Assembly (NCBI RefSeq): GCF_038024125.1
Contig: NZ_CP150662.1
Location: 1,319,501-1,383,500 of the forward strand
Origin: Polaribacter gangjinensis
Lineage (GTDB): Bacteria; Bacteroidota; Bacteroidia; Flavobacteriales; Flavobacteriaceae
DNA length: 64,000 nucleotides
Direction of reading: 5' to 3'
Below, in pieces: positions 3,968 through 27,665 of the stretch (position 1 is the first letter of the stretch; each line of letters begins with the position of its first letter). The translations under genes were made by a program, and so were the position numbers. The notes under the pieces are model-generated. The model searched no databases, was not told the DNA's origin, and saw only the letters and a program-made list of their open reading frames with translations.

Positions 3968-3988
3968 TGATTTAATGATTTAATGAAT
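3968..3988 (+). repeat. Left inverted arm of cassette 1
   Basis: The arm consists of two copies of TGATTTAA followed by TGAAT. It is the exact reverse complement of 4404-4424 and starts at the base after the dehydrogenase ATG (read on the minus strand). Confidence 0.85.
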
Positions 3989-3999
3989 GATTGAATGAA

Positions 4000-4362
4000 T
4001 TAGTTATTGCCTGCATTTTTTCTGGCTTTAGACATTATTTTTAATATTTCTAATGTTTCGTTAATCAATGGATCAATAGTTTCTGATGAAGCAAAATTTG
4101 CCTCTTTTAATATTTCTAACCAAAATAAAGTTTCATCTGCTTCTTCAACAACAATGCTTATTTTTGAAAAAAATTCTTTTTGAGATCGAGCAATACAAGT
4201 CGCTCTATAATTTGCAGCAGTAGATGTAACAGACCTAATTAATTGTCTTCCAATTATTCTTGTTGCATCAGTTTTTTGAATTTTATCATACATATGAATT
4301 ACATCAATTGCTAACTGTTTAGTTCTCTGTTTTAAAACTTCAATAAAATCTGATTTATTCAT
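4000..4362 (-). CDS. Four-helix-bundle (S23/Avd-like) protein, copy 1
   Basis: A 120-residue, mostly helical protein with the family core IRSVTSTAANYRATCIARS at residues 42-60, then a helix rich in acidic residues (SKISIVVEEADETLFWLEIL). This resembles the four-helix-bundle family that includes proteins encoded by 23S rRNA intervening sequences and the Avd accessory protein of diversity-generating retroelements. Those relatives are basic, nucleic-acid-associated pentamers. No catalytic motif is present. It shares operon orientation with the hydroxyproline genes but has no evident metabolic role. It is enclosed by inverted repeats. It is only distantly similar to the two other copies in the window, so these are not recent duplicates. 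Confidence 0.85.
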   Translation of the reverse strand: MNKSDFIEVLKQRTKQLAIDVIHMYDKIQKTDATRIIGRQLIRSVTSTAANYRATCIARSQKEFFSKISIVVEEADETLFWLEILKEANFASSETIDPLINETLEILKIMSKARKNAGNN

Positions 4363-4403
4363 AAATTTTCATTTAATTTTTCCATTAAATCATTTTCAAA
4401 TTA

Positions 4404-4424
4404 ATTCATTAAATCATTAAATCA
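4404..4424 (-). repeat. Right inverted arm of cassette 1
   Basis: Exact 21-base reverse complement of 3968-3988, ending two bases before the epimerase stop codon. Extra partial units (TTAAATCA-like) lie at 4383-4396. Confidence 0.85.
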
Positions 4425-4426
4425 CA

Positions 4427-5437
4427 CTAAATAACACTAAATCCATAGGCATATGGATCATCTTCTGTATCTATTGTAATGGTATTTTGACCATAAATTT
4501 TTGCCCAACCTTGAATACTTGGAATGATTGCCAATTTTTCATTGACAGTAGTTTCCTCTTCAACACAACCAATAAAAGTACTTCCAATAAAGCTTTCATG
4601 GATGAATTTTTCACCCACTTTAAGTATTCCTTTAGCATACAATTGCGCCAATCTTGCTGATGTTCCTGTGCCACAAGGACTTCTATCAATCGCTTTTTCA
4701 CCATAAAAAACAGCATTTCTTCCATTAGAATTTAGATTGATTGGAGTTCCTGTCCATAATAAATGTGTTACATTTTTGATACTTTCATTTTCAGGATGCA
4801 CAAACCAATTTGGGTATTTTTGATTGATGCGCTCTCTAATTATTTGCGAATATTGAATGATTTTTGATGCTGTAAAATCTTGAACTCCAGAGAAGTTTTT
4901 TTGAGGATCTACAATCGCATAAAAATTTCCTCCATAAGCAACATCGAACGTAATTTCTCCTAATTCTGGACAATCAATCGTTAAATTTTCAGCAGCTAAA
5001 TAACTTTTCACATTAGTTAGTTTTACCCACTCAACTTTATTATTTTTTTGATGATATTCAATTTCAACCAAACCTGCAGGAGCTTCCATTTTGATTTTTC
5101 CAGGAATTTTTGGAGTGATTAATCCTTCTTCAATTGCAATGGTAATCGTGCCAATTGTTCCATGTCCACACATAGGCAAACAGCCTGAAGTTTCTATGAA
5201 TAATATCGAAAAATCATTTTCAGGATTGTGTGGAGGATACAAAATACTGCCACTCATCATGTCATGACCTCTTGGTTCAAACATTAAGCCTTTGCGAATC
5301 CAATCGAATTCTTTTAAAAAATGCAATCGCTTTTCGTTCATGGTTTTTCCCACCAAATCAGGACCTCCACTTTTTATTACTCTTACAGGATTTCCGCAAG
5401 TATGTGCATCAATACACACAAAAGTATGTTTACTCAT
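4427..5437 (-). CDS. 4-hydroxyproline 2-epimerase (proline racemase family)
   Basis: It interconverts trans-4-hydroxy-L-proline and cis-4-hydroxy-D-proline, the first step of hydroxyproline catabolism. Both catalytic cysteines expected in an epimerase are present: Cys90 in GCLPMCGHG and Cys255 in DRSPCGTGTSA. That excludes the related dehydratase subgroup, in which one is Thr. The conserved N-terminal DAHTCGNPVRVI motif is also seen. The length of 336 is standard. It overlaps the upstream peptidase gene by 8 bases and is followed by the four-helix-bundle cassette, then the dehydrogenase. A proline racemase is possible from family membership alone, but the full downstream pathway in the operon argues for hydroxyproline. 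Confidence 0.93.
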   Translation of the reverse strand: MSKHTFVCIDAHTCGNPVRVIKSGGPDLVGKTMNEKRLHFLKEFDWIRKGLMFEPRGHDMMSGSILYPPHNPENDFSILFIETSGCLPMCGHGTIGTITIAIEEGLITPKIPGKIKMEAPAGLVEIEYHQKNNKVEWVKLTNVKSYLAAENLTIDCPELGEITFDVAYGGNFYAIVDPQKNFSGVQDFTASKIIQYSQIIRERINQKYPNWFVHPENESIKNVTHLLWTGTPINLNSNGRNAVFYGEKAIDRSPCGTGTSARLAQLYAKGILKVGEKFIHESFIGSTFIGCVEEETTVNEKLAIIPSIQGWAKIYGQNTITIDTEDDPYAYGFSVI

Positions 5438-7166
5438 TTAAAACTCTTTGAATATAATTGAGAACTCGCTCTTCTAAAATGGCTAAAGAAACTGTTCCTT
5501 GTTCTAAAATAACTTCATGAAAATCTCTGATATTAAATTTATTTCCAAGGATTTTTTCGGCTTTTGTTCGTAATTCTCTGATTTTAATTTCTCCCATTTT
5601 ATAAGACAAGGCTTGTCCTGGCCAAGAAATATACCTGTCAGTTTCAGTATTGATTTCGTGTAATGAAAGCGCTGTATTTTCTGACATGTATTTGACAACT
5701 TGCTCTCTTGTCCAATTTTTTGCATGAATTCCTGTATCAACAACCAATCTGCAAGCACGCCACATTTCGTAAGTCAATTTTCCAAATTGTTCATAAGGTG
5801 TTGTGTATATTCCCATTTCATCTGCTAAAAATTCGGAATACAATCCCCAACCTTCACCATATGCAGAAAGATATAAATTTCGTCGAAATTGCGGAATAGA
5901 TTCTCCCAATTCATTGTTCAAACTGCCTTGTAAATGATGTCCTGGAACTGCTTCATGAACGGTTAATGCTGGTAATGTGTACAAAGTTCTACTTGGCAAA
6001 TCATAGGTATTTACCCAATAATAACCAGGTTCTGTGCTGTTTTTGGATGTTCCAATATAACGTCCACTTGTGTATTTTGGCGCAATTGCATCTGGTACAG
6101 GTGCAACTCCATAAGGTTTTCTTGGTAAGGTTTTGAAAAAACGTGGCAACTCAGCATCTACTCTTTTGGCAATATCTCTTGCAATCATCAAAATTTCTTT
6201 AGGAGTTTTTGCAAAAAACTGTGGATCAGTTCTTAAAAATTGAAAAAAATCAGCAAAACTTCCTTTAAAATTCAATTCCTGGATGATTTTTTCCATTTCA
6301 GCTTTGATTCTTGCTACTTCTTTCAATCCGATTTGATGAATATCTTCAGCTGTATATTGTTTACTTGTAGTGTAAAAATTAATTCTGTTTTGATAATACG
6401 CTGCTCCATTTGGGGTTTGTGAAACGCCTAGAGTGGTTCTGGTTTTTGGTAAATATTCCTTTTCAAAAAATGTCTTAATTCGTTGAAATTGTGGAACAAC
6501 TTTTTTCTCAATGGCATCTTTTGCTGCCAATAAAATAGAATCTTTTTGTTTTGCAGAGAGACTTTCAGGCAGTTTTAGAAATGGCTTATAAAAGGGACTT
6601 TTCCTAAAATCATCCACAATATGATCATTATAAGTAGATTCGTATCCAATAAAAATTACTTTTGGCTGTGAAACTCCTTTTTGCAAACCCTCTCTTAAAT
6701 TGACAAAATGTTGATCTACAAATATTGGCAACGCATTCAATTTATTCAAATACGCTTTTGCTTGCCATAAATTATTGATGGGTCTAATTTGATAATTTAA
6801 ACTGCTATGAAAACCAGCATCTGATAAAAGCGGATTTAAAAACCTTTCAAACTTGTAAAAATCAATGTCATCTTGCAAAACAAATTGCAATAATTTGCAA
6901 GAAATCTTTTCAGTTTCTGATAAGTCATCTAATTGAATGCACTCAAATTCTTTTAAAAGTGAGGTAGCAAAATCGGCTTCAGCTTTGTAATATTCTTTGG
7001 TGTAAAGCCCTAAAGGAAATTTTTGACGATCAAAACCTTCATGACTTTCATAAGTTTTGATAATTTTTTCAAGTTGTTTTTTTGATGATTCACATTTTTC
7101 ATTTGCATTTACAGTAGAATTGAAAACAACAAAAAAGAATAAAAAATAAGCTATCAGGTTTTTCAT
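5430..7166 (-). CDS. DUF885 family metallopeptidase, exported
   Basis: A 578-residue protein with a signal peptide (basic start, hydrophobic core at 5-18, NANE region). It has the DUF885 zinc motif HEAVPGHH at residues 404-411, followed by a helix with downstream acidic residues, and the family sequence GYYWVNTYDLPSRTLYTLPA just before it. Members are M1/M3-like peptidases of poorly known specificity. Its place inside the hydroxyproline operon, overlapping the dehydrogenase gene by 4 bases and the epimerase gene by 8, suggests it releases hydroxyproline from small peptides in the periplasm. That substrate is an inference from neighbourhood. Confidence 0.85.
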   Translation of the reverse strand: MKNLIAYFLFFFVVFNSTVNANEKCESSKKQLEKIIKTYESHEGFDRQKFPLGLYTKEYYKAEADFATSLLKEFECIQLDDLSETEKISCKLLQFVLQDDIDFYKFERFLNPLLSDAGFHSSLNYQIRPINNLWQAKAYLNKLNALPIFVDQHFVNLREGLQKGVSQPKVIFIGYESTYNDHIVDDFRKSPFYKPFLKLPESLSAKQKDSILLAAKDAIEKKVVPQFQRIKTFFEKEYLPKTRTTLGVSQTPNGAAYYQNRINFYTTSKQYTAEDIHQIGLKEVARIKAEMEKIIQELNFKGSFADFFQFLRTDPQFFAKTPKEILMIARDIAKRVDAELPRFFKTLPRKPYGVAPVPDAIAPKYTSGRYIGTSKNSTEPGYYWVNTYDLPSRTLYTLPALTVHEAVPGHHLQGSLNNELGESIPQFRRNLYLSAYGEGWGLYSEFLADEMGIYTTPYEQFGKLTYEMWRACRLVVDTGIHAKNWTREQVVKYMSENTALSLHEINTETDRYISWPGQALSYKMGEIKIRELRTKAEKILGNKFNIRDFHEVILEQGTVSLAILEERVLNYIQRVLNE

Positions 7167-8752
7167 AAGTATATTTTTTCAGTGGTGCTAATTCCGTCAA
7201 CTTTTCTAATAATTCCTAACGGATTTTCATTTTGCAATTCTTTTGGCAACAATTCATTAGGCCAATCTTGGTAAGAAAAAGGACGAACCCAACGTTTGAT
7301 GGAATTCACACCAACAGCAGTAAATCTGCTATCAGTAGAAGCTGGATATGGACCACCATGAACCATAGATTCACATACTTCAACACCAGTTGGCACACCA
7401 TTGAAAATGATGCGTCCAACTCTATTTTGCAACGCTGAAATGATGTTTTGATAATCCTCAATTTCTTGATCAGCTGCAATTATAGTTCCTGTCAATTGCC
7501 CTTCTAAATGAGCAATTACGTTTTCCAATTCAGCTTCATTTTCACATTGAACAACCATAGAAAAAGGACCAAAAACCTCCAAATGCAACGTTGGATTTTC
7601 TAAAAAAGTAGCTCCATCAACACTTACAATTGCTTGTTGAGCAAAATTATCTGAAACTTCTGAATCATAATTTGCAACTATTGAAACGTTTTTTTGAGAA
7701 ATGATTTTGGATTTATTTACTTCATATCCATTTTTAATATTCGGATGCAACATGCAAGTAGGTTGAATTTTTAGGATTTCTTCTGATAAATTTTCTATAA
7801 AACTAGTTAAAGCATCACTTTTAATTCCCAATAACAAACCTGGATTAGTGCAAAATTGTCCTGTTCCTAAAGTGATTGAATTAGCATAGGTTTTTGCAAT
7901 TTCTTGATGTCTATTCTTTAAAGCATTTGGTAAAATTACAACTGGATTGATACTGCCCATTTCAGCAAAAACGGGAATTGGTTCCTCTCTTTTAGCAGCT
8001 AAATCGTACAAAGCTCTTCCTCCTTTGATGCTTCCTGTAAATCCAACAGCTTTTACTTTTTGATGTGAAACTAATTGCTGGCCAACTTCAATTCCGCTTG
8101 AATTTAAATTGGAAAAAACTCCATTAGGCATGCCTGTTTTTTGCGCAGCTTTTACAATTGCTAAAGCCACTAAACTTCCTGTTCCAGCATGCATTGGGTG
8201 CGATTTTACAATTACAGGACAACCTGCAGCCAATGCAGCAGCTGAATCTCCTCCTGCAGTTGAATATGCCAATGGAAAATTACTAGCACCAAAAACAACG
8301 ACTGGTCCTAAAGGAATGAGCATTTTTCTGATGTCTGATTTTGGCAATGGCTCTCTTTTAGGTTGGGCCAAATCAATAGTTGCTTCTAACCAAGAACCTT
8401 CTGCTACTAAATTTGCAAAACTTCGCAATTGCCCAACAGTTCTACCTCTTTCTCCAAGCGCTCTTGCTTCTGGCAAACCAGTTTCTGAACAATACATGTT
8501 AATCAATTCTTGATCTAAAGCTAATATTTCATCTGCAATTGCATTTAAAAAAGCCGCTTTTTTAGCACCTGAAATTTTACTGTATTCTTTGAAAGCTATG
8601 TAAGCAAGCGAAACTGCTTCATCAATTTCATCAGGAGTTGCTTCTACAAAAACGGTATCGTTTTCTTGGTCTAATTCAGGATTAAACGTTTTAAATGTTT
8701 TATTCCCTTTGGCTGATACTTGATTTCCTATGTAGTTTTTTCCTGTAATCAT
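7163..8752 (-). CDS. 2,5-dioxovalerate (alpha-ketoglutaric semialdehyde) dehydrogenase
   Basis: An NAD(P)-dependent aldehyde dehydrogenase of 529 residues. The general-base Glu264 lies in FAEMGSINP and the catalytic Cys301 in GTGQFCTNPG. The coenzyme-binding GFTGSIKGG loop precedes them, and an N-terminal GASNFPLAYSTAGGD segment is typical of the ketoglutarate-semialdehyde branch. It oxidises 2,5-dioxopentanoate to 2-oxoglutarate, the last step of hydroxyproline (and pentose or glucarate) oxidation. A 120-base gap separates it from the upstream deaminase gene, and a weak -7-like box (TAAATTTA) lies in that gap. It overlaps the downstream peptidase gene by 4 bases (ATGA). Confidence 0.9.
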   Translation of the reverse strand: MITGKNYIGNQVSAKGNKTFKTFNPELDQENDTVFVEATPDEIDEAVSLAYIAFKEYSKISGAKKAAFLNAIADEILALDQELINMYCSETGLPEARALGERGRTVGQLRSFANLVAEGSWLEATIDLAQPKREPLPKSDIRKMLIPLGPVVVFGASNFPLAYSTAGGDSAAALAAGCPVIVKSHPMHAGTGSLVALAIVKAAQKTGMPNGVFSNLNSSGIEVGQQLVSHQKVKAVGFTGSIKGGRALYDLAAKREEPIPVFAEMGSINPVVILPNALKNRHQEIAKTYANSITLGTGQFCTNPGLLLGIKSDALTSFIENLSEEILKIQPTCMLHPNIKNGYEVNKSKIISQKNVSIVANYDSEVSDNFAQQAIVSVDGATFLENPTLHLEVFGPFSMVVQCENEAELENVIAHLEGQLTGTIIAADQEIEDYQNIISALQNRVGRIIFNGVPTGVEVCESMVHGGPYPASTDSRFTAVGVNSIKRWVRPFSYQDWPNELLPKELQNENPLGIIRKVDGISTTEKIYL

Positions 8753-8872
8753 CTTTACTTTTTTTCTAAATGAACTTTTGTAAATTTACTATTTTGTAAG
8801 TGTTTTTATGATGAGTGTATCTGTGATTATTGTTTAAAATGAAAATTTGTCATTTGCGATTTTTTTAAAAAA

Positions 8873-9829
8873 TCAACTTATTAAATCTAAAACTTCAAGT
8901 CTTTCTTTCGCCAGAATGTATCTTGCATGTACATCATCAATTTGCTGTTTTGTTAATTTCTTGCCAAAGGTTCGTAAACCTCCTGCAACATCATTGTGAT
9001 GAATTCCCATAGCTAACTTAAGATATTCCAAAAGCAGCGGTTGAGCATCTAAATACGACATCGAATTTAGAGCCTGTGAAATTTTGTTTGCCTCAGCCCA
9101 TTCTCCATTTAAAATATACTCCTGCATAGTAACACTAGCTTTTGGAAAGATACAACCAACACCTGTAATTCCACCACATGCTCCTGCTAGTCCTGCATGT
9201 ACAGTAACTGTATCTACTCCTACTAAAATTTTTAAATCTTTGTTCTCTAACATCAGCGTTTCAATAATTGAAACATCTATAGTCGATATTTTAAGCGCAG
9301 TTACTTTAGGAAGCACTGAAAGCCTTAAGAGAAGGTCTGTTGATAGCGCATGATAACCAGCTGCATCAGGATTGTTATAAGGCATAATGGTTACATGTAC
9401 ATCTTTTGCAGTGGCTTCAGAAAGTGCAAAATACTCATACATTTCTTTTTCAGAAGGAACCGCCTTCGTTTTTGGTGGCATAACCATGACTGTATCAACT
9501 CCGACTTTTGCAAGTCCTTCAATGATTCTAGTAAGCTCTTCCTTAGTTTCTGCAGAAGCTCCGCTAATCAATGGAACATTGTATTCTTTAGCAACCTCAG
9601 AAAGGGATGTAAGCAAAGAAAGTCGCTGTTTGGTACTCAAATAACTATTCTCACCCAGAGTACCAGAACCGACAAGTCCGCTCATTCTGCTTCCACCCTT
9701 TCCTTGAACTTTTAAAATACCTGCGGCCTGTTTTTGCGTTGTATCAAAGTCAATTTCAAGACCACCTGATTTTGACTCTTTTAACCATGTAAACACTGCA
9801 GGCATTACACCTTCCCAATTGAATGTCAT
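8873..9829 (-). CDS. Dihydrodipicolinate synthase family, probable 1-pyrroline-4-hydroxy-2-carboxylate deaminase
   Basis: A 318-residue class I aldolase-fold lyase. The active-site Tyr lies in IMPYNNP and the Schiff-base Lys in TALKIST, the two hallmarks of the DapA/N-acetylneuraminate lyase family. In the hydroxyproline pathway this family deaminates pyrroline-4-hydroxy-2-carboxylate to 2,5-dioxopentanoate, which the next gene product oxidises. An N-terminal insert of about 25 residues (around 16-45) is longer than in DapA. It is the first gene of the operon. Codon choice looks somewhat richer in G/C than the flanking genes by eye, so acquisition from another lineage is conceivable. Confidence 0.85.
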   Translation of the reverse strand: MTFNWEGVMPAVFTWLKESKSGGLEIDFDTTQKQAAGILKVQGKGGSRMSGLVGSGTLGENSYLSTKQRLSLLTSLSEVAKEYNVPLISGASAETKEELTRIIEGLAKVGVDTVMVMPPKTKAVPSEKEMYEYFALSEATAKDVHVTIMPYNNPDAAGYHALSTDLLLRLSVLPKVTALKISTIDVSIIETLMLENKDLKILVGVDTVTVHAGLAGACGGITGVGCIFPKASVTMQEYILNGEWAEANKISQALNSMSYLDAQPLLLEYLKLAMGIHHNDVAGGLRTFGKKLTKQQIDDVHARYILAKERLEVLDLIS

Positions 9830-9853
9830 ATTTGAAGTTTTTTTTTGATGCTT

Positions 9854-9861
9854 TAAAGTTA
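9854..9861 (-). promoter_or_regulatory. Candidate -7 box of the hydroxyproline operon
   Basis: TAACTTTA (minus strand) matches the Bacteroidota -7 consensus TAnnTTTG at all positions but the last, 24 bases upstream of the deaminase start. No convincing -33 TTG is seen, so the assignment is tentative. Confidence 0.4.
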
Positions 9862-9907
9862 TTGAAAATCTATGAAAAATGGGTAAAAGTGATTCATCAT
9901 TTTAATA

Positions 9908-9934
9908 CCTACAAGGTTTTGAAAACCTTGCAGG
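9908..9934. repeat. Palindromic dispersed-type repeat
   Basis: CCTACAAGGTTTT, then G, then AAAACCTTGCAGG: a 27-base near-perfect palindrome with a single mismatch (A9911/C9931). It lies between the convergently oriented leader of the hydroxyproline operon and the end of the YjbR gene. There is no T tract on the YjbR side, so it is not a classic terminator. The same 10-base half (ACAAGGTTTT on the minus strand) recurs at the very end of the window. Confidence 0.6.
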
Positions 9935-9944
9935 AAAATATGAT

Positions 9945-10313
9945 TTACATTTCAGCTAATTCTTTTTGTAATTTTTTGGTTAAACCTTTCACAACTTCAT
10001 CATAAGAATGATTGATGAGTTTTTTGGCCAATTCATCAGAAATATCTGAAGTATTCAATGTTACTGTATTCCATAATTTTTTGTTCATGTGCCAACCTGG
10101 ATTGATACCTTCATATTCACTTCTCAATTCTTCAGACCAATCTGGATTGCATTTTAGATTGATTTTTTGATCGCCTTTTTCCCAAGAATCCAAGCCTACC
10201 AATGCAAACATTTTGTTCATGACTTTAAAAACAAGTGTAACATCATCAAAAGGAAAATGTTCAGTAACACCTTTTTTGGAAAGGCAAAAATCCCGAATTT
10301 CATCAATATGCAT
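9945..10313 (-). CDS. MmcQ/YjbR family protein
   Basis: A 122-residue cytosolic protein of the CyaY-like-fold YjbR family (often annotated as DNA-binding, but without proven function). The N-terminal IDEIRDFCLSKKGVTEHFPF and the motifs FALVG, INLKCNPD, PGWHMNKKLWNTV and LINHSYDEVVKGL are the usual family blocks. It is divergently transcribed from corA with an 80-base shared control region. Confidence 0.88.
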   Translation of the reverse strand: MHIDEIRDFCLSKKGVTEHFPFDDVTLVFKVMNKMFALVGLDSWEKGDQKINLKCNPDWSEELRSEYEGINPGWHMNKKLWNTVTLNTSDISDELAKKLINHSYDEVVKGLTKKLQKELAEM

Positions 10314-10358
10314 AAAGAATGATTTAAAAAAAACAACTCAAATTCCAACTAAAAAAAG

Positions 10359-10366
10359 TATCTTTC
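10359..10366 (+). promoter_or_regulatory. Candidate -7 box for corA
   Basis: TATCTTTC, one mismatch from TAnnTTTG, 27 bases upstream of the chosen corA ATG. It supports the internal start, since the longer open frame (from 10213) would run through this promoter and into the divergent gene. Confidence 0.4.
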
Positions 10367-10392
10367 GTTTCAAAAATACAATTCTTTTGAAT

Positions 10393-11373
10393 ATGCAACC
10401 AGATTTTCTTAGCCAAACTTCATTAATTACATACGCACCAAAAAAACACGAAAGAACTACTTTTACTGATATTTCTGAAATATTATTGACAGATAATCCA
10501 GATGAAATAAAATGGTTAAATACGTATGGATTGTATTTTAAAAATGAATTTAAAACAGTCGTTCAAAATTCGAATTTAGATGATTTTTTATTAAAACTAT
10601 TGAGTGATGATGAACATCCTAACAAAGTAATTTTACTAGATAATTTGATTTTTTTAACAATTAGAGTTTTAAAAACGGATCAAAAGAATTTAAGTTCAGA
10701 ACAAATTCTTTTCATGATTTCAACTCATTCTTTATGGAGTATTCAAGAAAAAAAGGGCGATTATTTTGGTTGGATTCGCGAACGAATTGAGGGAAATAAA
10801 GGTGTTGTTAGAAAGAAAAAAAGTGATTATTTATTGTTTTTGTTATTAGAATCTATTGTGGATAATTACTTAGAAACGTATCAAAAAAATGCAGCCATTA
10901 GTTCTGATCAATTGGATATTTCTAGAGTAAAACCTACGCCTGAATTTACATCTTTAGTTGAAAAAAGAAAGCAAGAATTGTTCAATTTTAAAAAAGCAAC
11001 ATTGAGTTTAAGAGATGTTGTTATGAAATTGGAAACTATTGAAATTAAAGGATTTAACAACAAATACTTTAGTGAATTAAAAGAACAAATCAATAATTTA
11101 TTGACGAATATCGATTTTGAATTGCAAGAATTAGAGAGTAAAATCAATTTGATTTTTAGTATTCAAGGACATCGTTTGAACGAGGTCATGAAAACGTTAA
11201 CAATTTTATCTGTCATTTTTATTCCATTGACATTTTTAGCTGGAATTTATGGAATGAATTTTGAAAATATGCCCGAATTGAAATTCCAGTATGGCTATTT
11301 TTTATTACTTGGGTTTATGTTTGTAATTAGCCTTTTTATTGTTTGGTATTTTAAAAGAAAAAAGTGGTTTTGA
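10393..11373 (+). CDS. corA: CorA-type magnesium/divalent cation transporter
   Basis: An inner-membrane Mg2+ channel of 326 residues. A soluble, charged, coiled-coil-rich N-terminal region is followed by two C-terminal membrane helices. The invariant selectivity motif GMN lies at the end of the first (AGIYGMNFENMPEL), and the protein ends in the usual basic tail (KRKKWF). The frame is open upstream to 10213, but that part overlaps the divergent YjbR gene. The ATG at 10393 gives the normal length and follows a -7-like box, so I choose it. It converges on the alpha/beta hydrolase gene, which ends 20 bases away. Confidence 0.92.
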   Translation: MQPDFLSQTSLITYAPKKHERTTFTDISEILLTDNPDEIKWLNTYGLYFKNEFKTVVQNSNLDDFLLKLLSDDEHPNKVILLDNLIFLTIRVLKTDQKNLSSEQILFMISTHSLWSIQEKKGDYFGWIRERIEGNKGVVRKKKSDYLLFLLLESIVDNYLETYQKNAAISSDQLDISRVKPTPEFTSLVEKRKQELFNFKKATLSLRDVVMKLETIEIKGFNNKYFSELKEQINNLLTNIDFELQELESKINLIFSIQGHRLNEVMKTLTILSVIFIPLTFLAGIYGMNFENMPELKFQYGYFLLLGFMFVISLFIVWYFKRKKWF

Positions 11374-11393
11374 TTTGCTTTCAGCAAAAAACA

Positions 11394-12332: not shown

Positions 12333-12335
12333 AAA

Positions 12336-13088: not shown

Positions 13089-13122
13089 AAAGGGAACTTA
13101 GTAATTGTTGATTGATGTTTCT

Positions 13123-13130
13123 CAAAGATA
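13123..13130 (-). promoter_or_regulatory. -7 box of the cyclase/hydrolase operon
   Basis: TATCTTTG on the minus strand is a perfect TAnnTTTG match, 34 bases upstream of the cyclase ATG. No good -33 element is seen. Confidence 0.55.
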
Positions 13131-13172
13131 GCATTTCAAAACTTTATTTTGAAATTTTCTTTTTGAAAGAAA

Positions 13173-14306: not shown

Positions 14307-14319
14307 TGAATTAGTTTTC

Positions 14320-14343
14320 AGTTTTCAGTCTCAGTTTTCAGTT
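14320..14343 (+). repeat. Left inverted arm of cassette 2
   Basis: Consists of AGTTTTC, AGTCTC, AGTTTTC and AGTT. It is the exact reverse complement of 14749-14772. Confidence 0.85.
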
Positions 14344-14349
14344 TGAGAT

Positions 14350-14721
14350 TCATTTTAATTTAACTCCGAATTTTGATGGATTGTTCATCATAAAATGTGT
14401 CAATTTTCCAACTTCTTCAATTTCATTTGAAAGTTCTTGGAATATTTCTGAATTTATGTAATTACATTTATTTGCAAACAAGAGCCAAGTAAAGGTCTCT
14501 GAATTTTCAGCATCACTATCACTAAGTTTACTTGTAAAATGTTTTGGGTATGCTCTTTTTCTATAGGCCTCAGCAATATTTGCAGGAACACTTCTTGATG
14601 ATCTTCTTATTTGATCTGTAAGTGAATACTTTTCCTCAATTGGAAATGACTTTGAAATTTCAAAAATTCTCATTGCCAATTGAAATGATTTTTTGAATGC
14701 TAAAAGACTTGTAAAATCCAT
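14350..14721 (-). CDS. Four-helix-bundle (S23-like) protein, copy 2
   Basis: 123 residues. It carries the family signature most clearly: LTDQIRRSSRSVPANIAEAY at residues 34-53, with a basic RKR cluster after it, and helical segments before and after. This is the S23 / 23S rRNA intervening-sequence protein family. Family members are small, basic and have no known enzymatic activity. The start is the ATG just inside the right repeat arm. It lies between ruvC and hemW, and neither gene suggests a partner function. It shares only the core motif with copies 1 and 3. Confidence 0.88.
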   Translation of the reverse strand: MDFTSLLAFKKSFQLAMRIFEISKSFPIEEKYSLTDQIRRSSRSVPANIAEAYRKRAYPKHFTSKLSDSDAENSETFTWLLFANKCNYINSEIFQELSNEIEEVGKLTHFMMNNPSKFGVKLK

Positions 14722-14748: not shown

Positions 14749-14772
14749 AACTGAAAACTGAGACTGAAAACT
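14749..14772 (-). repeat. Right inverted arm of cassette 2
   Basis: Exact 24-base reverse complement of 14320-14343. Its outer two bases are part of the ruvC stop codon. Confidence 0.85.
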
Positions 14773-17241: not shown

Positions 17242-17267
17242 CATCGCATAAAATAAATCAAAAACTA

Positions 17268-18323: not shown

Positions 18324-18358
18324 TTTGAAATAGTAACCAAATATTAAAAATACAGAAA

Positions 18359-18411: not shown

Positions 18412-18431
18412 AAATCACTAAAACTTATCTG

Positions 18432-18632: not shown

Positions 18633-18655
18633 TTGAAATTTCGATTTTTTAAAGC

Positions 18656-21103: not shown

Positions 21104-21108
21104 ATTTC

Positions 21109-21570
21109 ATGAAAATACTTTTAAGAAAAATCTTTATTTGTTGTTTTTTGTTTGCTTCGTTTTCTTTGATTTCACAAGAAAAAGATGATGATTTACAAAA
21201 CATCATTACCACTATTGAAAACTATTATAATGGTTATATACTAAGAGATTATTCTCTTTTAGAAAAAGCATTTGATACTGAAAATGGCACCATGAAAGTA
21301 CCCATTTTGAAGGATGAAAAAATCATAGGTTATCAAAATAACTTCTTCAAACATTTGATTCAAAAATGGAGCTCAAGAGAAAAATTGACTGAAGAAATAA
21401 TAAAAAAATGTAAGTTAACAATTCTAAATATTGACAATGTAAATACACAAATGGCAAGTGCAAAAATCAGTATGAAAGTAGAGAAAATCACTTATATTGA
21501 TATTTTATCAATTCAAAAAATTGAGGAAAAGTGGAAGATTACCAATAAGATTTTTGTAATTGATCAGTGA
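21109..21570 (+). CDS. NTF2-like / lumazine-binding-type secreted protein
   Basis: 153 residues. A signal peptide (CCFLFASFSLISQEK) precedes an NTF2-fold domain with IENYYNGYILRDYSLLEKAF at its start and the KIEEKWKITNKIFVI closing strand, as in the putative lumazine-binding (SnoaL-like) family. No catalytic residues stand out. The gene follows GH2 by 5 bases and ends 3 bases from the convergent MazG-like gene. Confidence 0.7.
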   Translation: MKILLRKIFICCFLFASFSLISQEKDDDLQNIITTIENYYNGYILRDYSLLEKAFDTENGTMKVPILKDEKIIGYQNNFFKHLIQKWSSREKLTEEIIKKCKLTILNIDNVNTQMASAKISMKVEKITYIDILSIQKIEEKWKITNKIFVIDQ

Positions 21571-21573
21571 TTT

Positions 21574-21960
21574 TTATTTTTTCAAAATCTCCTCAATATT
21601 AGGTTTAAAATAATTTGGTCCTTTTAAAACCTTCCCATCTTCTCTGTAAATGGGTTTGCCATCTTCGCCCAATTTACTCATGTTACTTCGTTGAATTTCA
21701 TTGAAAACTTCGTCAATCTTATCTTGCATTCCATGCTCGATAATAGTACCACAAAGAATGTACAACATATCACCCAAAGCATCTGCAACCTCAACCAAAT
21801 CATTATTATTGGCAGCTTCTAGATATTCTTCATTTTCTTCACGCATCAATTTATAGCGTAATAAATTTCGTTCTTCGCCAATATCTGCTGTGGGTTTATT
21901 TTTGATACCCAATTTAAAAGCTGTATGAAATTGATGAACTGCATTAATTTTATCTTTCAT
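21574..21960 (-). CDS. MazG-like nucleoside triphosphate pyrophosphohydrolase family protein
   Basis: A 128-residue all-alpha NTP pyrophosphohydrolase. The metal-binding acidic helix motif is visible as REENEEYLEA followed by LVEVADALGDMLYIL (ExxE then ExxxD). Hydrolysis of (d)NTPs to monophosphates and PPi for pool sanitation is known for the superfamily, but the specific nucleotide is unknown. It is monocistronic and convergent with the preceding gene. Confidence 0.85.
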   Translation of the reverse strand: MKDKINAVHQFHTAFKLGIKNKPTADIGEERNLLRYKLMREENEEYLEAANNNDLVEVADALGDMLYILCGTIIEHGMQDKIDEVFNEIQRSNMSKLGEDGKPIYREDGKVLKGPNYFKPNIEEILKK

Positions 21961-22021
21961 TTGTATTGTTTTTATTAGATTTTAACATTCACTTATTGTA
22001 TATTTTTTGTGAATAAATATG

Positions 22022-22029
22022 TAATTTTG
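22022..22029 (+). promoter_or_regulatory. -7 box of the 69-residue membrane protein gene
   Basis: TAATTTTG is a perfect TAnnTTTG match, 67 bases upstream of the start codon. No -33 element at proper spacing is evident. Confidence 0.5.
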
Positions 22030-22096
22030 CAACTGACAATATAGCAAAACTTTTGAAGTAAATTTTGAGAATATTGCATAAAAAATCAAAAACTAT

Positions 22097-22306
22097 ATGA
22101 TGTTTTTAAACGCTTTTTTTTCAACTGGAAGAATCATTTTTATCATTTTTTTTGTAATTGCTTTTTCAGCAGTATTAGTTTGGAGTTACAAAAAAGACAC
22201 CAAAAATCATGAACGATATTATAAAAATGCAGGAAAAAAAGTAGCTATTTATGGCGGAATTATCATTGCCATTTTTGTTGCGTTGAGAATACTATTAGGA
22301 AATTAA
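22097..22306 (+). CDS. Small two-helix membrane protein, hypothetical
   Basis: 69 residues. The hydrophobic segment IIFIIFFVIAFSAVLVW (about 13-29) is followed by a very basic loop (SYKKDTKNHERYYKNAGKK) and a second segment (VAIYGGIIIAIFVALRILLG). The hairpin places its charged loop in the cytoplasm. Either of the first two Met codons could be the start. No known family is recognised with certainty, although similar small proteins are common in flavobacteria. Confidence 0.65.
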   Translation: MMFLNAFFSTGRIIFIIFFVIAFSAVLVWSYKKDTKNHERYYKNAGKKVAIYGGIIIAIFVALRILLGN

Positions 22307-22404
22307 TTCCAAATTCTCATTTTTTTTTAATTTTTTAGTTCTTTTAAAACAGATAATTTCTAAGGCTGTATATAAAAATAAGCCAGTATTTTAAAAATTG
22401 ATGC

Positions 22405-22971
22405 TTACAAGCATGAATGATGAAATTTAAAACAGGATGATGTGTGATCATTGACCATGCCAACTGCTTGCATAAACGCATACATAACTGTAGAACCTAC
22501 AAATTTAAAGCCTCGCTTTTTTAAAGTTTTGGAAATTGCATCCGAAATTTCGGTAGTTGCAGGAACTTCATTTCGTTGATGAAAACAATTCACAATTGGT
22601 TTTCCATCTACAAAACGCCAAATAAAATTAGAAAACGACCCAAATTCTTTCTGAATTTCCATAAATAATTGCGCATTTGTTATGGCACTTTGTATTTTTA
22701 AACGGTTTCTGATAATACCTTCATTTTGTAATAATTCTTGCTGCTTTTTATCAGAATAATTAGCAATTTTTTGATAATCAAAATTGTCAAATGCCTTTCT
22801 AAAATTCTCTCTTTTGTTCAAAATTGTCAACCAATTCAACCCTGCTTGAAAAGTTTCTAGTAATAAAAATTCGAATAAAACTGCATCATCATACACAGGT
22901 TCTCCCCATTCTGAATCATGATATTCTTGATACAATTTGCTATCTGTTACCCAAAAACATCGATTTTTCAT
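22405..22971 (-). CDS. tag: DNA-3-methyladenine glycosylase I
   Basis: It removes 3-methyladenine from alkylated DNA in base-excision repair. 188 residues with the Tag pattern: RCFWVTD..YQEYHDSEWGEPVYDD, LLLETFQAGLNWLTILNKRENFRKAF, and a late FKFVGSTVMYAFMQAVGMVNDH. The terminal HHSC, together with the early Cys and His, supplies the zinc ligands. It begins 2 bases after the peptidase gene and shares its transcript. A small hairpin spans the stop codon (22401-22414). Confidence 0.94.
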   Translation of the reverse strand: MKNRCFWVTDSKLYQEYHDSEWGEPVYDDAVLFEFLLLETFQAGLNWLTILNKRENFRKAFDNFDYQKIANYSDKKQQELLQNEGIIRNRLKIQSAITNAQLFMEIQKEFGSFSNFIWRFVDGKPIVNCFHQRNEVPATTEISDAISKTLKKRGFKFVGSTVMYAFMQAVGMVNDHTSSCFKFHHSCL

Positions 22972-22973
22972 TG

Positions 22974-24320
22974 CTAATTTGTTTTAATTGGTTTGATTTT
23001 AGTTTGTCTTTCATTGACATATTCAAATGAGTTATTACCGAAAAAACCAGCTTCCTCCAGCATAATTCTAATATCTTTTTTCCATTCTTTAATAGCAACA
23101 GTGGTATTCAATTCAATGGCATAGACTGTATTTTTGTGCAAAGGATATTCTCCATTAAAAGGTACACCATTTTGAGAATCCCACATACCAATTGTGGTTC
23201 CTGCACTATGCCCAAAAGTTCCTAAAGGATGTGTGTAAATTGATGGTCTTAAACCTTCTTTTTTTCCTTGAGCTAAAGAAGTTGCTAAGATTTCATTCCC
23301 AGTTTTTCCAATTTTCATGTTTGATGTTAAGATATCTTGCACACGATTTCCATCCTCAAAAGCAGCTTTCAAAAACGCTGGAACTTCGTTTTCATCCTTT
23401 TTTAAAACATAAGCATGTTGCTGACAATCAGTATTTAAACCAATATAAGTGATGCCAAAATCACAATGCAGCAAATCACCTTCTTGAATGATTTCTTCGG
23501 CTTTTTGTTTTGAAAAAGATTCAATATGCGATTTTAAAGCTTCGTTATTTCTTTGTACATCAATTGTTGGATGAAACCAAGTTTCTAAACCTAAATCTGT
23601 AACTTTTTGACGCATAAACCAAACAACATCTTCTGTGGTTGTAATGCCTGGTTTTATAACCTTTTCAGAAAAAGCTTCATCAATAATATCATGTGTAATT
23701 TTTACCAAATTTTTGTATAAAGCCATTTCTTTTGCTGTTCTGGTTTCTAACCAAGCTATGGCTAAATTTTCTGCGGAAACAATTTTTGAGTGAAATTCTA
23801 CAGGTAAATTCTCCAAAAATTCTTCATAATCAGTTTTTACCAAACCATCTGCCAAGGCAAAATGTTTTGAAAAATTCAGTCCTATTTTATTTGGATTTTT
23901 CTCTTTGATAATGGCTGTTAAAGCTTCCCATTGATTGGGTTGTTGCTCTTTATTCCAAGCAGATTGTATGCTTTTCCCAATATCATATCTGGCAACAGCC
24001 AATCTTTCAAGGGTATTTTTTTCTTTATTTCGATAAAAAACAATAATGGTTCTTCTGCGTGCATTTAACCAAGTTGCAGGTAACAATGTTTTTAAAACGG
24101 GGTCTTCATTGTATTCTCTTGAAATTAACAACCACATGTCAATATCTGTATCATCCATTAAGATTGGTAATAAATTTGACAAGCGATCTTCTAAAAGTTC
24201 GTCTTTTAAAATGGCTCTTTCTTTTTCAGATAAAATATCATAATGTTTTTGATTTTCAGTGTTTTGTTGACAAGAAAAACACAGAAAAAAGAGGCAAATG
24301 AGCAAGAAATTTTTAAGCAT
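22974..24320 (-). CDS. M24 family metallopeptidase (Xaa-Pro aminopeptidase-like), lipoprotein
   Basis: 448 residues. A lipoprotein signal ends in FLCFSCQQN (Cys at about 17). An N-terminal creatinase-like domain is followed by the pita-bread metallopeptidase fold. Metal ligands are seen in HCDFGITYIGLNTDCQQHAYV (two Asp), in HPLGTFGHSAGT (His), and in YAIELNTTV and the following EEAGFF region (Glu). Xaa-Pro cleavage is the usual activity of the group. It would suit the hydroxyproline/oxoproline peptide metabolism elsewhere in the window, but the link is inferred. Confidence 0.85.
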   Translation of the reverse strand: MLKNFLLICLFFLCFSCQQNTENQKHYDILSEKERAILKDELLEDRLSNLLPILMDDTDIDMWLLISREYNEDPVLKTLLPATWLNARRRTIIVFYRNKEKNTLERLAVARYDIGKSIQSAWNKEQQPNQWEALTAIIKEKNPNKIGLNFSKHFALADGLVKTDYEEFLENLPVEFHSKIVSAENLAIAWLETRTAKEMALYKNLVKITHDIIDEAFSEKVIKPGITTTEDVVWFMRQKVTDLGLETWFHPTIDVQRNNEALKSHIESFSKQKAEEIIQEGDLLHCDFGITYIGLNTDCQQHAYVLKKDENEVPAFLKAAFEDGNRVQDILTSNMKIGKTGNEILATSLAQGKKEGLRPSIYTHPLGTFGHSAGTTIGMWDSQNGVPFNGEYPLHKNTVYAIELNTTVAIKEWKKDIRIMLEEAGFFGNNSFEYVNERQTKIKPIKTN

Positions 24321-24421
24321 TATCTATTTTTTTACGTTTTAAAAATACTGTTAAAAGAATTGAAAACCTATCAAATCTGAAATATTTTTTGCAAATTTAC
24401 CAATGTGAAATTCTTTGAATA

Positions 24422-24856
24422 ATGAAAATTCTAAAATCACTTATTTTTCTATCGCTAATTACACTTGTTTTATGGGCTTGTAGTTCTGTGCCAATATCAA
24501 AAAAAAACATTGAAAATGAGGAACCTGTTGTGATTGCCAATGATAGTTTAGAGTATGAAATTATCATTATAGATCCTGGATTTAACTATTTTTTAAATGC
24601 AGTTGCACAACCTGTTGGTTATTACACTCAAAATTATATGGAAGCTCGTAATATTGCTTGGGTAACAACTTGGAATTTGAGAGCACAAAATCCTTTGCAG
24701 TACAATCCTAATATTTACGAAAACACCATTGATTATCAACCAAATATAGATTATGGTTATGAGGTAAATTATAAATTATTCAATTATTTTTTATTTGCAC
24801 AACAAAAATATCGAATGAATTTAGGTGGAGGATTTAACAATATCCGAATTAATTAG
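24422..24856 (+). CDS. DUF6146-like lipoprotein
   Basis: 144 residues. A lipobox (LITLVLWACSS, Cys at about 20) is followed by the short domain EEPVVIANDSLEYEIIIIDPGFNYFLNAVAQPVGYYTQNY and a terminal DYGYEVNYKLFNYFLF block rich in Tyr and Asn. It resembles a small flavobacterial lipoprotein family (DUF6146, recalled and not verified). Function is unknown. Its last 8 bases overlap the convergent dihydrofolate reductase gene. Confidence 0.75.
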   Translation: MKILKSLIFLSLITLVLWACSSVPISKKNIENEEPVVIANDSLEYEIIIIDPGFNYFLNAVAQPVGYYTQNYMEARNIAWVTTWNLRAQNPLQYNPNIYENTIDYQPNIDYGYEVNYKLFNYFLFAQQKYRMNLGGGFNNIRIN

Positions 24857-25343
24857 CTCTTTTTTGGTATTTTATAAAACTGTAATCAAACTTGTTTTTT
24901 TCATCAGCTTTAAAATCTTCTCTTGAAATTTCTTCCCAAATTTTTGTGTCAATTTCAGGAAAAAAAGCATCCGCATCAAATTCATGATGCACTAAAGTAA
25001 TGTCTAAAGCATCAACTAAATCATTTTCTAACGCTTGTCTATAAATTTGCTCTCCACCAACAATACAAATAACCTCTTCATTTTTAGAGATTTGAATAGC
25101 ATCCTCTAAACTTGAAGCCATCAAACAACCTTCTTGAAAATATTCAGGATTTCTACTCACAATAATCGTGGTTCTATTGGGCAAAGGTTTTCCAATAGAT
25201 TCGTACGTTTTTCTTCCCATAATCATATGATGCCCTGTTGTAAGTTGTCTAAAACGCTTTAAATCAGCAGGTAAATGCCAAATCAAATCATTATTTTTAC
25301 CTAAAGCATTGTTTTTGGCAATGGCTGCAATGAGTGTAATCAT
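24849..25343 (-). CDS. folA: Dihydrofolate reductase
   Basis: NADPH-dependent reduction of dihydrofolate, replenishing THF after ThyA. 164 residues. Visible family blocks are IAAIAKNNALGKNNDLIWHLPADLKRFRQLT (the N-terminal strand and catalytic Asp loop), IMGRKTYESIG, and the ICIVGGEQIYRQAL nucleotide-binding motif. The C-terminal strand pair ends KFDYSFIKYQK. It follows the secreted hypothetical gene by 3 bases. thyA is 1.1 kb away on the same strand but in a different transcript. Confidence 0.96.
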   Translation of the reverse strand: MITLIAAIAKNNALGKNNDLIWHLPADLKRFRQLTTGHHMIMGRKTYESIGKPLPNRTTIIVSRNPEYFQEGCLMASSLEDAIQISKNEEVICIVGGEQIYRQALENDLVDALDITLVHHEFDADAFFPEIDTKIWEEISREDFKADEKNKFDYSFIKYQKRAN

Positions 25344-25346
25344 GGG

Positions 25347-25784
25347 TTATTTGATGGTTTTAATCTCAGTAAACTTAATTTGTAATGGTATTGAAAATTC
25401 AACTGAAACGACTTGTCCATTTTTTTGAGCCCCTTTTTTGATGTTCAATTTTTCAAGTACTTTTTCTAAAGCTTCTTTTTGAATATTTGTAAATTCTGAT
25501 AAATTATTGATTTTTATACTTCCATCAAAAGTAGTTTTTAGATGCAATGCATAAGAAGGTTGTTCATTAAAATAAATCAACGATTTTGAATCAATATTAG
25601 TGATAAAAAACTGTTGCAATTTTGCTTGAAATAATAGAATGTTATTTTTTTGACTCTTGGGAATTTCGAATTGATGAAAAATGGGTAACTCATCAAGTTC
25701 CGATAAATTAAATGATTTTATTTGTTCTTGTGAAAAAACAACATTGGTGAACACTAAAAAAAAAACAAAAAAAGTTCTATTCAT
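25347..25784 (-). CDS. Secreted hypothetical protein with faint TonB C-terminal resemblance
   Basis: 145 residues with a signal peptide (FFVFFLVFTNVVFSQEQ). The second half (YALHLKTTFDGSIKI ... KKGAQKNGQVVSVEFSIPL) is reminiscent of the beta-strand pattern in TonB C-terminal domains. The match is weak and there is no transmembrane anchor or proline linker. It is first gene of a two-gene unit with folA. I cannot assign a function. Confidence 0.7.
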   Translation of the reverse strand: MNRTFFVFFLVFTNVVFSQEQIKSFNLSELDELPIFHQFEIPKSQKNNILLFQAKLQQFFITNIDSKSLIYFNEQPSYALHLKTTFDGSIKINNLSEFTNIQKEALEKVLEKLNIKKGAQKNGQVVSVEFSIPLQIKFTEIKTIK

Positions 25785-26017
25785 ATTTCAAAAATAATGT
25801 AAAAGTGATGAAATTTGACGTTTTTCTTCATTTTTGACAAAAAAATACCCCTTTACGAAACCGATTTAGGAGCAAAAGTACTGAAAATCAGGATAAAAAT
25901 AATCTTCAAAAAATTAAAAATCCCATAATTTACTTATTGATATTTTTTGAATACTTGTATTTTTTAGCAAAGATTTTGTTGAACTCGCAAATCGAATCAA
26001 TTAGAAAGCATTAAAGT

Positions 26018-26047
26018 TTGTCATCAAAAAGTTGTTATCTACTTTTA
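26018..26047 (+). promoter_or_regulatory. Candidate promoter of the glycogen-binding-domain gene
   Basis: TTG at 26018-26020, a 19-base spacer, and TACTTTTA at 26040-26047 (one mismatch), 23 bases before the ATG. The rest of the 286-base gap (25785-26017) shows no gene. Confidence 0.5.
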
Positions 26048-26070
26048 CCACATAATTTAAATACAAAATT

Positions 26071-26367
26071 ATGGCAATTAAAAAACAATTTTTAAAAAGT
26101 AAACCAGTTTGTAAAGTAACTTTTTCTATACAACCTGAAGAAGCTGAAAATGTTGCAGTTGTAGGAAGTTTTAATGGTTGGGATGAAAGTGCAACTCCTT
26201 TGAGTAAATTGAAAAATGGTACATTTAAAGGCACAATTGATTTAGAATCAGGAACTTCATATGAATTTAGATACTTAGTTGATGGAAACTATGTAAATGA
26301 TGAAGAAGCTGATGGATATGCTTGGAGCGATTTTGCTGGAGCAGAAAACAGCGTATTGAGTTTGTAA
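26071..26367 (+). CDS. Stand-alone isoamylase-N/CBM48-like domain protein
   Basis: 98 residues forming a single early-set (E-set) glycogen-binding domain. KVTFSIQPEEAENVAVVGSF and NGWDESATPLSKLKNGTF are followed by SYEFRYLVDGNYVNDEEADGY, the typical starch/glycogen-binding pattern with conserved Trp and Tyr residues. There is no signal peptide, so it is cytosolic. In Bacteroidota such small proteins are annotated as isoamylase early-set domain proteins, perhaps acting as carbohydrate sensors. No glycogen enzymes are nearby. A strong terminator follows. Confidence 0.88.
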   Translation: MAIKKQFLKSKPVCKVTFSIQPEEAENVAVVGSFNGWDESATPLSKLKNGTFKGTIDLESGTSYEFRYLVDGNYVNDEEADGYAWSDFAGAENSVLSL

Positions 26368-26374
26368 AAATTAC

Positions 26375-26415
26375 AAAGAGCTTTCAAATAGTTTGAAAGC
26401 TCTTTTTGTTTTTAT
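26375..26415 (+). terminator. Rho-independent terminator, glycogen-binding-domain gene (shared with thyA end)
   Basis: A 14-bp perfect stem (AAAGAGCTTTCAAA, 26375-26388, with 26392-26405), a 3-base loop TAG, then a T-rich run to 26415. It sits directly between the convergent ends of this gene and thyA and may serve both. Confidence 0.85.
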
Positions 26416-26416
26416 T

Positions 26417-27241
26417 CTAAACAGCAACGATTCCTTTGATGTGAGGATGTGGATTGTAGTTAATCAATTCAAAATCTTTGAAAGTAAAATCTTCAATATT
26501 TTTTATTGCTGGATTTATTTTCATGGTTGGCAAAGGTCTAATGTCTCTAGACAATTGCAATTCTAATTGTTCAATGTGATTGTTATAAATATGGGCATCT
26601 CCAAAAGTATGGATGAATTCACCTGCTTGATAACCACAAACTTGTGCAATCATCATAGTAAAAAGTGCATATGATGCAATATTGAAAGGAACTCCTAGAA
26701 AAATATCAGCACTTCTTTGGTATAGTTGACAAGACAATTTACCATCTGCTACATAAAACTGAAAAAATGCATGACAAGGAGGCAAAGCTGCTTTTCCATT
26801 GGCAACATTTTCTGAAAAAGATTTGGATGTATCAGGCAAAACTGATGGATTCCAAGCAGAAACCAACATTCTTCTTGAATTCGGATTTTTTTTCAATGTT
26901 TCAATTACTTCTTTTAGCTGATCAATTTCATCACTATTCCAGTTGCGCCATTGATGTCCATATACTGGCCCTAAATCACCATTTTCATCTGCCCATTCAT
27001 TCCAAATTCTGACGCCATTTTCTTGTAAATATTTGATATTGGTATCTCCTTTTATAAACCACAATAATTCATATACAATTGATTTTAAGTGTAGTTTTTT
27101 TGTGGTTACCATAGGAAAACCTTCACTCAAATCAAAACGCATTTGATAACCAAAAACACTTTTTGTTCCAGTTCCTGTTCTATCTCCTTTTTCATTTCCG
27201 TTTTCTAAAACGTGTTTTACTAAGTCATGGTATTGTTTCAT
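26417..27241 (-). CDS. thyA: Thymidylate synthase
   Basis: It methylates dUMP to dTMP using methylene-THF. 274 residues, somewhat longer than E. coli ThyA. The active-site Cys lies in [43 protein letters not shown] and the terminal [10 protein letters not shown] are all present. It begins just below the four-helix-bundle cassette and is read with nupC, coupling nucleoside uptake and thymidylate supply. Confidence 0.96.
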
Positions 27242-27262
27242 TTTCTAGGTGAAAGATTTTAG

Positions 27263-27631
27263 TTATAAGGTTAAAGTTGAATTTTGATTATATTTTATTA
27301 ATGCTGAGATTCGTTTTTGCAAAACTTGAACTTTATCAATTGTTAAATTTAAATCATTCTCATTAAAAAAATTTAATTCAATACATAAAATTAAATGAGA
27401 TTCTAGTTCAAATGCAGAACCCAAACTAATTTGCAAAAACCTAATAAAGTCCTTTTGAGAATCCTTTGCTGAACCTTCAGCTATATTTGCAGGAATAGAA
27501 ATTACACACCTATTTATTTGAGAGATCAATCCAAATTGCTCAGAAGATGGTAATTTTGATGAAACTAAATAAACTTCTTTAGCTAAAAACCTAGCTTCAT
27601 TCCATATATCTAGTTTTCTAAAATTCCTCAT
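27263..27631 (-). CDS. Four-helix-bundle (S23-like) protein, copy 3
   Basis: 122 residues with the family core LISQINRCVISIPANIAEGS at residues 34-53, followed by KDFIRFLQISLGSAFELESHL. This is the most canonical S23-type helix pair of the three copies. Its last codons (about NSTLTL) are encoded inside the left repeat array, which suggests that the C-terminus was shaped by the repeat. It lies in the bifunctional nuclease-nupC-thyA transcript with no functional connection to nucleosides. Confidence 0.88.
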   Translation of the reverse strand: MRNFRKLDIWNEARFLAKEVYLVSSKLPSSEQFGLISQINRCVISIPANIAEGSAKDSQKDFIRFLQISLGSAFELESHLILCIELNFFNENDLNLTIDKVQVLQKRISALIKYNQNSTLTL

Positions 27632-27637
27632 TTCCTA

Positions 27638-27665
27638 AACTTTCAACTTTTGACTTTAGACTTTT
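27638..27665 (+). repeat. Tandem heptamer array, right end of cassette 3
   Basis: Four consecutive 7-mers: AACTTTC, AACTTTT, GACTTTA, GACTTTT. They lie between the start of the four-helix-bundle gene and the stop of nupC. Confidence 0.75.

Follow-up and report, generated by a model that had tools for sequence, protein, structure and literature searches.

A 64,000-nt stretch of the Polaribacter gangjinensis genome (NZ_CP150662.1, positions 1,319,501-1,383,500; hereafter the window, to whose numbering all coordinates below refer) carries three genes of the S23 family of four-helix-bundle proteins, each lodged between two protein genes of an operon, and two of them are enclosed by inverted arrays of short tandem repeats. 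We read these loci as small mobile DNA elements that lack a transposase of their own and whose ends keep a repeat period rather than a sequence, and we give this reading a probability of about 0.72. Structure, repeat period, arm polarity, decay, and empty and filled sites were observed directly, joint travel of gene and arrays mainly in one lineage, and target duplication at up to three sites. An element would comprise one S23 gene and one array of 6-8-bp repeats at either end, the two arrays being mostly inverted relative to each other, with a total length of about 450-500 bp.

All three window proteins exceed the curated cut-offs of PF05635 and TIGR02436 in profile searches. The gene of element 1 (4000..4362, 120 aa; PF05635 E 7e-14, TIGR02436 E 1.8e-22) lies between a Pro_racemase and a DAO gene, that of element 2 (14350..14721, 123 aa; PF05635 E 2.2e-32) between RuvC and a HemW-type radical SAM gene, and that of element 3 (27263..27631, 122 aa; PF05635 E 7.6e-35) between a NupC-type nucleoside transporter and ThyA. 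Each shares the minus strand with both of its neighbours, which bears out an earlier note on this DNA that had taken the three for one family set between co-directional operon genes. The protein of element 2 additionally matched the solved structures 2gsc and 2rld in the PDB, for each of which five chains are listed.

The significance of the arrays at these loci was judged by comparing the best inverted match between the flanks with 1000 dinucleotide shuffles. At element 1, an upstream arm of TGATTTAA-type repeats (4386..4424) pairs with a downstream arm that overlaps the stop codon (3968..4002; score 46), and at element 2 an upstream arm of AGTTTTC-type repeats (14749..14772) pairs with positions 14320-14343 (score 48) of a downstream array (14313..14344) for which Tandem Repeats Finder (TRF) reports 4.7 copies at period 7; all of these lie on the minus strand, and neither score was reached by any of the 1000 shuffles. 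When the whole window was scanned stepwise, the same two loci gave the two top inverted pairs (50 and 46), the next pair scoring 35. Related elements occupy the junction of element 1 in loci L330 and L342. The upstream flank of element 3 holds the repeat-like AGTCAAAAGTTGAAAGT, and TRF finds there a weak minus-strand array (ACTTTTG, 2.9 copies; 27646..27665) without a significant inverted partner. Between the arms of the window elements the S23 gene is the sole gene, with no transposase beside it, and the window as a whole has no Rfam match at gathering score, the neighbours of the elements being protein genes.

The same layout recurs well beyond the window. The source genome encodes 11 members of the PF05635 family, most of them with array-like flanks by eye and with a unit that differs from copy to copy; seven of the 11 beat all 100 shuffles when their last codons are counted with the flank, and five when they are not. 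Family members are present in 49 of the 58 genomes of the genus (0 to 16 copies each), and a test of their flanks against shuffled controls revealed an enrichment: 60 of 120 S23 loci beat all 100 shuffles and 91 were matched by at most 5, against 4 of 90 loci around control genes of the same genomes that beat all shuffles (thyA 3/30, ruvC 0/30, racemase 1/30), with at most 5 matching shuffles at 4/30, 0/30 and 6/30 of them, respectively. A cross-phylum scan of 80 loci (Proteobacteria, Firmicutes, Planctomycetes, Acidobacteria, Chloroflexi, candidate phyla and others) yielded 76 with usable flanks, of which 52 beat all shuffles, as did 10 of 14 plasmid loci (12 of the 14 cyanobacterial) and 25 of 34 loci on viral contigs, some of these contigs being near-duplicates. 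Because the end of the coding sequence can lie within the downstream array, the cross-phylum, plasmid and viral counts are low estimates. The recurring system that had been suspected from three loci is thus borne out in the genus and across phyla. The planctomycete locus L108 has GGTGGAC-type repeat arms of more than 200 bp on each side (score 311).

What the arrays share is their period and their polarity. In the genus, the unit measures 6-8 bp in 43 of 45 S23 arrays, most commonly 8 bp (22 arrays) and then 7 bp (16), and outside the genus it measures 7 bp in 78 of 85 arrays (46/51, 11/12 and 21/22 in the three sets). The upstream arm, read on the strand of the S23 gene, is G-rich in 114 of 124 loci. 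Genus S23 genes lie on the strand of both neighbours at 117 of 119 loci, and the cross-phylum set has 42 loci with both neighbours on the strand of the gene against 6 with both on the opposite strand, among 70; antisense copies account for those 6 of 70 loci, for 4 of 14 on plasmids and for 21 of 33 on viral contigs. The upstream arm is G-rich in all 18 loci where the S23 gene is antisense to both neighbours (12 of them on viral contigs, some of which are alike), so arm polarity seems to belong to the element itself and not to depend on host transcription. The unit is common to both arms, but an exact mirror order of unit variants between them, which we considered as a further trait, was dropped, being significant in only 14 of 117 loci (p<=0.05, in a weak test). 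The S23 reading frame itself is under purifying selection, with a median ratio of nonsynonymous to synonymous substitution rates of 0.18 over 235 same-site pairs.

A second gene family shows the same layout. GxxExxY genes (PF13366, PDDEXK_3), which belong to a nuclease family unrelated to S23, often lie inside inverted arrays (loci L352-L381 and L477-L504), and 17 of 30 such loci in the genus and 20 of 31 in a wider set beat all shuffles; a scan of viral contigs returned only 3 loci. Their units are longer: 13 of 15 arrays in the genus have units of 9-10 bp, and 12 arrays of the wider set have units of 9-12 bp, frequently with CACAGAG-like cores and without G polarity (6/12). With 7 bp for S23 and 9-10 bp for GxxExxY, unit length follows the gene family.

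Comparison of orthologous operons uncovered filled, decayed and empty versions of the same junctions. At the ruvC-hemW junction, 30 genus loci were compared. Eight yield a match to an S23 protein of the window, and another two show, by eye, a related gene in a gap of suitable size; a further two contain remnants, again by eye. The intergenic gap measures 31-97 bp in 7 loci, in some of them with scars resembling an array, in 10 the stop and start codons abut or overlap, and the last locus carries another insert. At the racemase-DAO junction, 3 of 30 hold an S23 gene and five a GxxExxY gene instead (by eye: L324, L332, L334, L338, L341). At nupC-thyA, the source genome is the only one of the 30 fetched with an S23 gene, and L265, from another genome, has one there as well. 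Decay and empty sites were also seen at the hisH-hisA and acrB junctions, and at junctions of the his operon gene-less inverted short-repeat arrays are visible by eye (L415, L416, L420, L421, L423, L432), possibly remnants or non-coding relatives of the elements. The glmS junction was set aside as an empty-site control, the source copy being a diverged paralogue with 63-68% identity to the copies of other genomes. Within the window, the short-range gene-less repeat hairpins (8 pairs scoring at least 28) include none with a significant tandem period; near its end, at 63908-63936, lies a perfect decamer array (TTTTACCACT, 2.9 copies), at a place where the source genome has no S23 gene.

Cyanobacterial plasmids offer the closest view of insertion, through eight compared sites. 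Where L309 and L310 have the empty sequence AAAAAGTAATTAAC, L047 and L318 read AAAAAGTAAT, element, GTAATTAAC, an exact 5-bp duplication of GTAAT; an exact apparent duplication of at least 5 bp is expected by chance at 0.6% per site. Compared with L050, the element of L049 is bordered by TTCTA at either end, next to a difference of 1 bp, a near-exact duplication, and L505 holds the same insertion with TTCTG as its right copy. The comparison of L050 with L505 in turn reveals a stop/start overlap, TAATG, as the target of an insertion, which has TAATG to its left and TTATG plus extra sequence to its right, a second near-exact case. No clear duplication was seen at L041, L043, L048, L051 and L052, the nearest empty relatives of L041 being about 90% identical. 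Related plasmids differ by whole units of the array, two between L047 and L318 (96.9% identical) and one between L048 and L317 (89.7% identical), as expected from slippage. An inverted array without a gene is found in L313, at the same left boundary. No array is present at the clean empty sites; gene and arrays therefore arrived there together.

On these plasmids, S23 elements also lie within operons of clustered regularly interspaced short palindromic repeats (CRISPR) systems (L046, L051, L052), at cas6-cas4 and cas10-cmr3 junctions. A close relative has another palindromic insert (GTAGGTTGGGTTGACGC..., L349, about 920-1165) at the cas6-cas4 junction where L051 holds its S23 element. A gene for a Uma2-family endonuclease (L382), at the same cas10-cmr3 junction as the S23-bearing L052, was discarded as a further candidate, as its 13 bp to either neighbour leave no space for arrays.

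Whether gene and arrays travel together can be judged from the 120 genus loci, which fall into 37 site groups. Twenty pairs from different sites have proteins with above 70% identity; array-word sharing has medians of 0.15 and 0.25 among them and of about 0.045 among unrelated pairs, and 16 of the 20 fall within one lineage (L002, L013, L019, L022, L031, L229, L236); in pairs at different sites below 60% protein identity this likeness is nearly lost. Since the unit is common to close relatives even where their sites differ, gene and arrays appear to travel together and the arrays to change thereafter, at least in this lineage. The earlier note had also proposed a mobile class that creates or copies local repeats upon insertion. 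Of this, the mobility has gained support; copying of local repeats seems not to occur, because such repeats are missing from the clean empty sites and close relatives elsewhere share the unit.

From these observations we infer the following course of events. The element would insert as a unit, arrays included, through a staggered cut, with duplication of about 5 bp, as seen in the cyanobacterial relatives and not at the window loci. Duplication at a TAATG stop/start overlap would preserve the stop codon of the upstream gene as well as the start codon of the downstream one; the sparing of both neighbours would account for the position of surviving copies at operon junctions. The inserted gene would then be transcribed with the operon and retained by purifying selection, while slippage adds and removes units, so that old copies come to have unlike ends, and the end state would be a scar or a gene-less array. 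The ends may be recognised through repeat period and fold, not through sequence, conceivably by an S23 oligomer that binds and reads the array, perhaps with one subunit per unit; the entries of the two solved relatives list five chains each. Because only the S23 gene lies between the arms, the enzyme that cuts and joins would come from elsewhere and could be a host or foreign recombinase.

Several observations weigh against such elements. No transposase is encoded by them or was identified. The earlier note had inverted arrays at every window locus, which is true of the first two and fails at the third, where the best inverted match scores 20 and is reached by 429 of 1000 shuffles. Of the 90 control loci, 10 reach the 95th percentile, more than the 5% expected. 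Inversion is not universal either, as a direct match outscores the inverted one at 32 of 120 genus loci (the reverse holds at 85) and beats all shuffles at 23; the direct match is the better one at 8 of 76 cross-phylum loci, and some direct-match arrays, such as that of L013, carry units in both orientations. The 5-bp duplication was found at only three of the eight compared sites, exact and clean at only one, and none of these is a window locus. To account for the sense bias in the genus, selection or some process specific to one orientation has to be assumed. Array similarity shows no correlation with protein similarity when all sites are taken together (median Mantel p 0.70), and we thus rejected a general protein-array code. 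Array words are still shared by 28 same-site pairs whose proteins have no more than 40-50% identity (median 0.18), so that arrays could outlast or exchange their gene, and gene-less arrays occur. Finally, none of the 7 pairs at different sites with more than 80% identity lies within one genome, and recent jumps inside a genome were therefore not seen.

Some of these points would fit other explanations. The arrays could act in RNA, pairing in the operon transcript and looping out the S23 gene, with cleavage by RNase III or a stop and start brought together, as in the intervening sequences of 23S rRNA. The S23 family with the same layout does occur there: in Azospirillum (L053) the gene lies inside the 23S rRNA gene beside a TCTGTCTTCTGTCATCCGTCTTCTG array, although its inverted score is not significant (reached by 16 of 100 shuffles), and the kinship with the S23 proteins of such intervening sequences claimed in the earlier note thus holds. 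Tandem heptamers likewise precede the S23 gene of the rRNA element in Coxiella, according to the available part of its description (PMC4990558), and the sense bias within operons, in the genus and across phyla, also speaks for such a role. Selection for an RNA stem should, however, leave more G-U pairs than A-C mismatches between the arms in the sense RNA, and G-U pairs are not in excess (190 against 242 at 137 loci, 187 against 243 at 148 loci); in the 148-locus run, mismatched pairs of arms gave 730 G-U and 584 A-C. The slight excess at the loci is on the A-C side, and the wobble test therefore gives no support to the mRNA-level intervening element envisaged in the earlier note. In addition, arm polarity with respect to the gene is unchanged in antisense copies, and the order of unit variants is seldom mirrored. 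We regard this explanation as unlikely, at about one chance in five.

Somewhat less probable still is that the arrays came first, as independent features of operon junctions such as microsatellites or regulator sites, in which S23 or GxxExxY genes settled later. Inverted arrays without a gene, seen in L313 and by eye in the his operons of several genomes, heptamer arrays published, in the portions of text available, without a link to a gene (PMC4679880, PMC4692102, PMC2700814), and the persistent likeness of same-site arrays as their proteins diverge all speak for it; clean empty sites, at which gene and arrays came together, a period that depends on the gene family, and the scarcity of inverted arrays at control genes speak against it. 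An accessory role in a diversity-generating retroelement or another reverse-transcriptase system, suggested by the fold that Avd proteins have in common with this family, is very improbable. The second window protein matches the bAvd and Avd models weakly (39.5 bits against a cut-off of 40, and 29 against 80), but the reverse transcriptase domain RVT_1 (PF00078) has no match in the complete source genome with its 11 copies, nor in G028 (13), G017 (11), G020 (9) and G013 (7), and is present in 25 of the 58 genomes of the genus. This RVT_1 search lends no support to the link, which we have discarded.

More tentatively, and at somewhat less than even odds, the transposase-less elements proposed here may belong to a pan-bacterial mobile class whose terminal repeats define it by their period and not by their sequence. 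The cargo protein would set the unit length (7 bp for S23, 9-10 bp for GxxExxY) and act as the ruler of the array, slippage would renew the ends without loss of mobility, and rRNA intervening sequences, cyanobacterial heptamer repeats and orphan heptamer arrays would be relatives or remains. The S23 proteins of fragmented 23S rRNA and intergenic heptamer arrays have hitherto been described separately, with unclear function, in the literature as far as available to us. One anatomy for heptamer arrays, S23 and GxxExxY would offer them a possible shared and testable origin, and raises the question of how a mobile element is recognised whose ends retain period and polarity but not sequence.

Among known systems, miniature inverted-repeat transposable elements (MITEs) and other non-autonomous transposons have inverted ends, a short target duplication, no transposase and a terminal sequence common to the family. 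The elements described here resemble them in their inverted ends, in the lack of a transposase and, at up to three of the eight compared sites, in a short target duplication; unlike in MITEs, their ends share only period and polarity, with units that vary by site and are common only to close relatives. They differ from insertion sequences and autonomous transposons in encoding no transposase; of the target duplication of fixed length that marks these, 5 bp were observed at three of eight sites (one exact) in cyanobacterial relatives. The short tandemly repeated repetitive (STRR) sequences of cyanobacteria, reportedly described by Mazel in 1990, are likewise 7-bp tandem units between genes that can form hairpins, and our plasmid relatives have such 7-bp units in 11 of the 12 arrays that pass the score limit, drawn from the 14 plasmid loci. 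As far as the accessible descriptions of STRRs go, these have no gene of their own and an unknown function, whereas the arrays considered here bound S23 genes on cyanobacterial plasmids.

The closest parallel is the intervening sequence of the Coxiella 23S rRNA, which, in the available part of its description, has one S23 gene, terminal inverted repeats, a length of about 430 nt, a sporadic distribution, and three tandem heptamers before the gene whose number varies among strains, an origin by transposition being one hypothesis (PMC4990558). Unlike it, the window elements lie between protein genes, occur in many copies per genome and have a site-specific unit, and the wobble test gives no support to their excision from RNA. 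Hepta- and octamer arrays have been reported from scattered lineages, comprising TAACTGA heptamers in Beggiatoaceae (PMC4679880), GGGAATC heptamers in Xanthomonas, with 70 and 75 convergent pairs in two genomes (PMC4692102), and paired hepta- and octamers on opposite strands in Geobacter (PMC2700814); in the portions of these papers at hand, and unlike for the elements presented here, neither a gene nor a mechanism of mobility is proposed for them. The open-licence literature searched, within its accessible text, contained no case of S23 or GxxExxY genes tied to inverted heptamer arrays outside rRNA. The present material joins orphan heptamer arrays and S23 proteins into one element anatomy.

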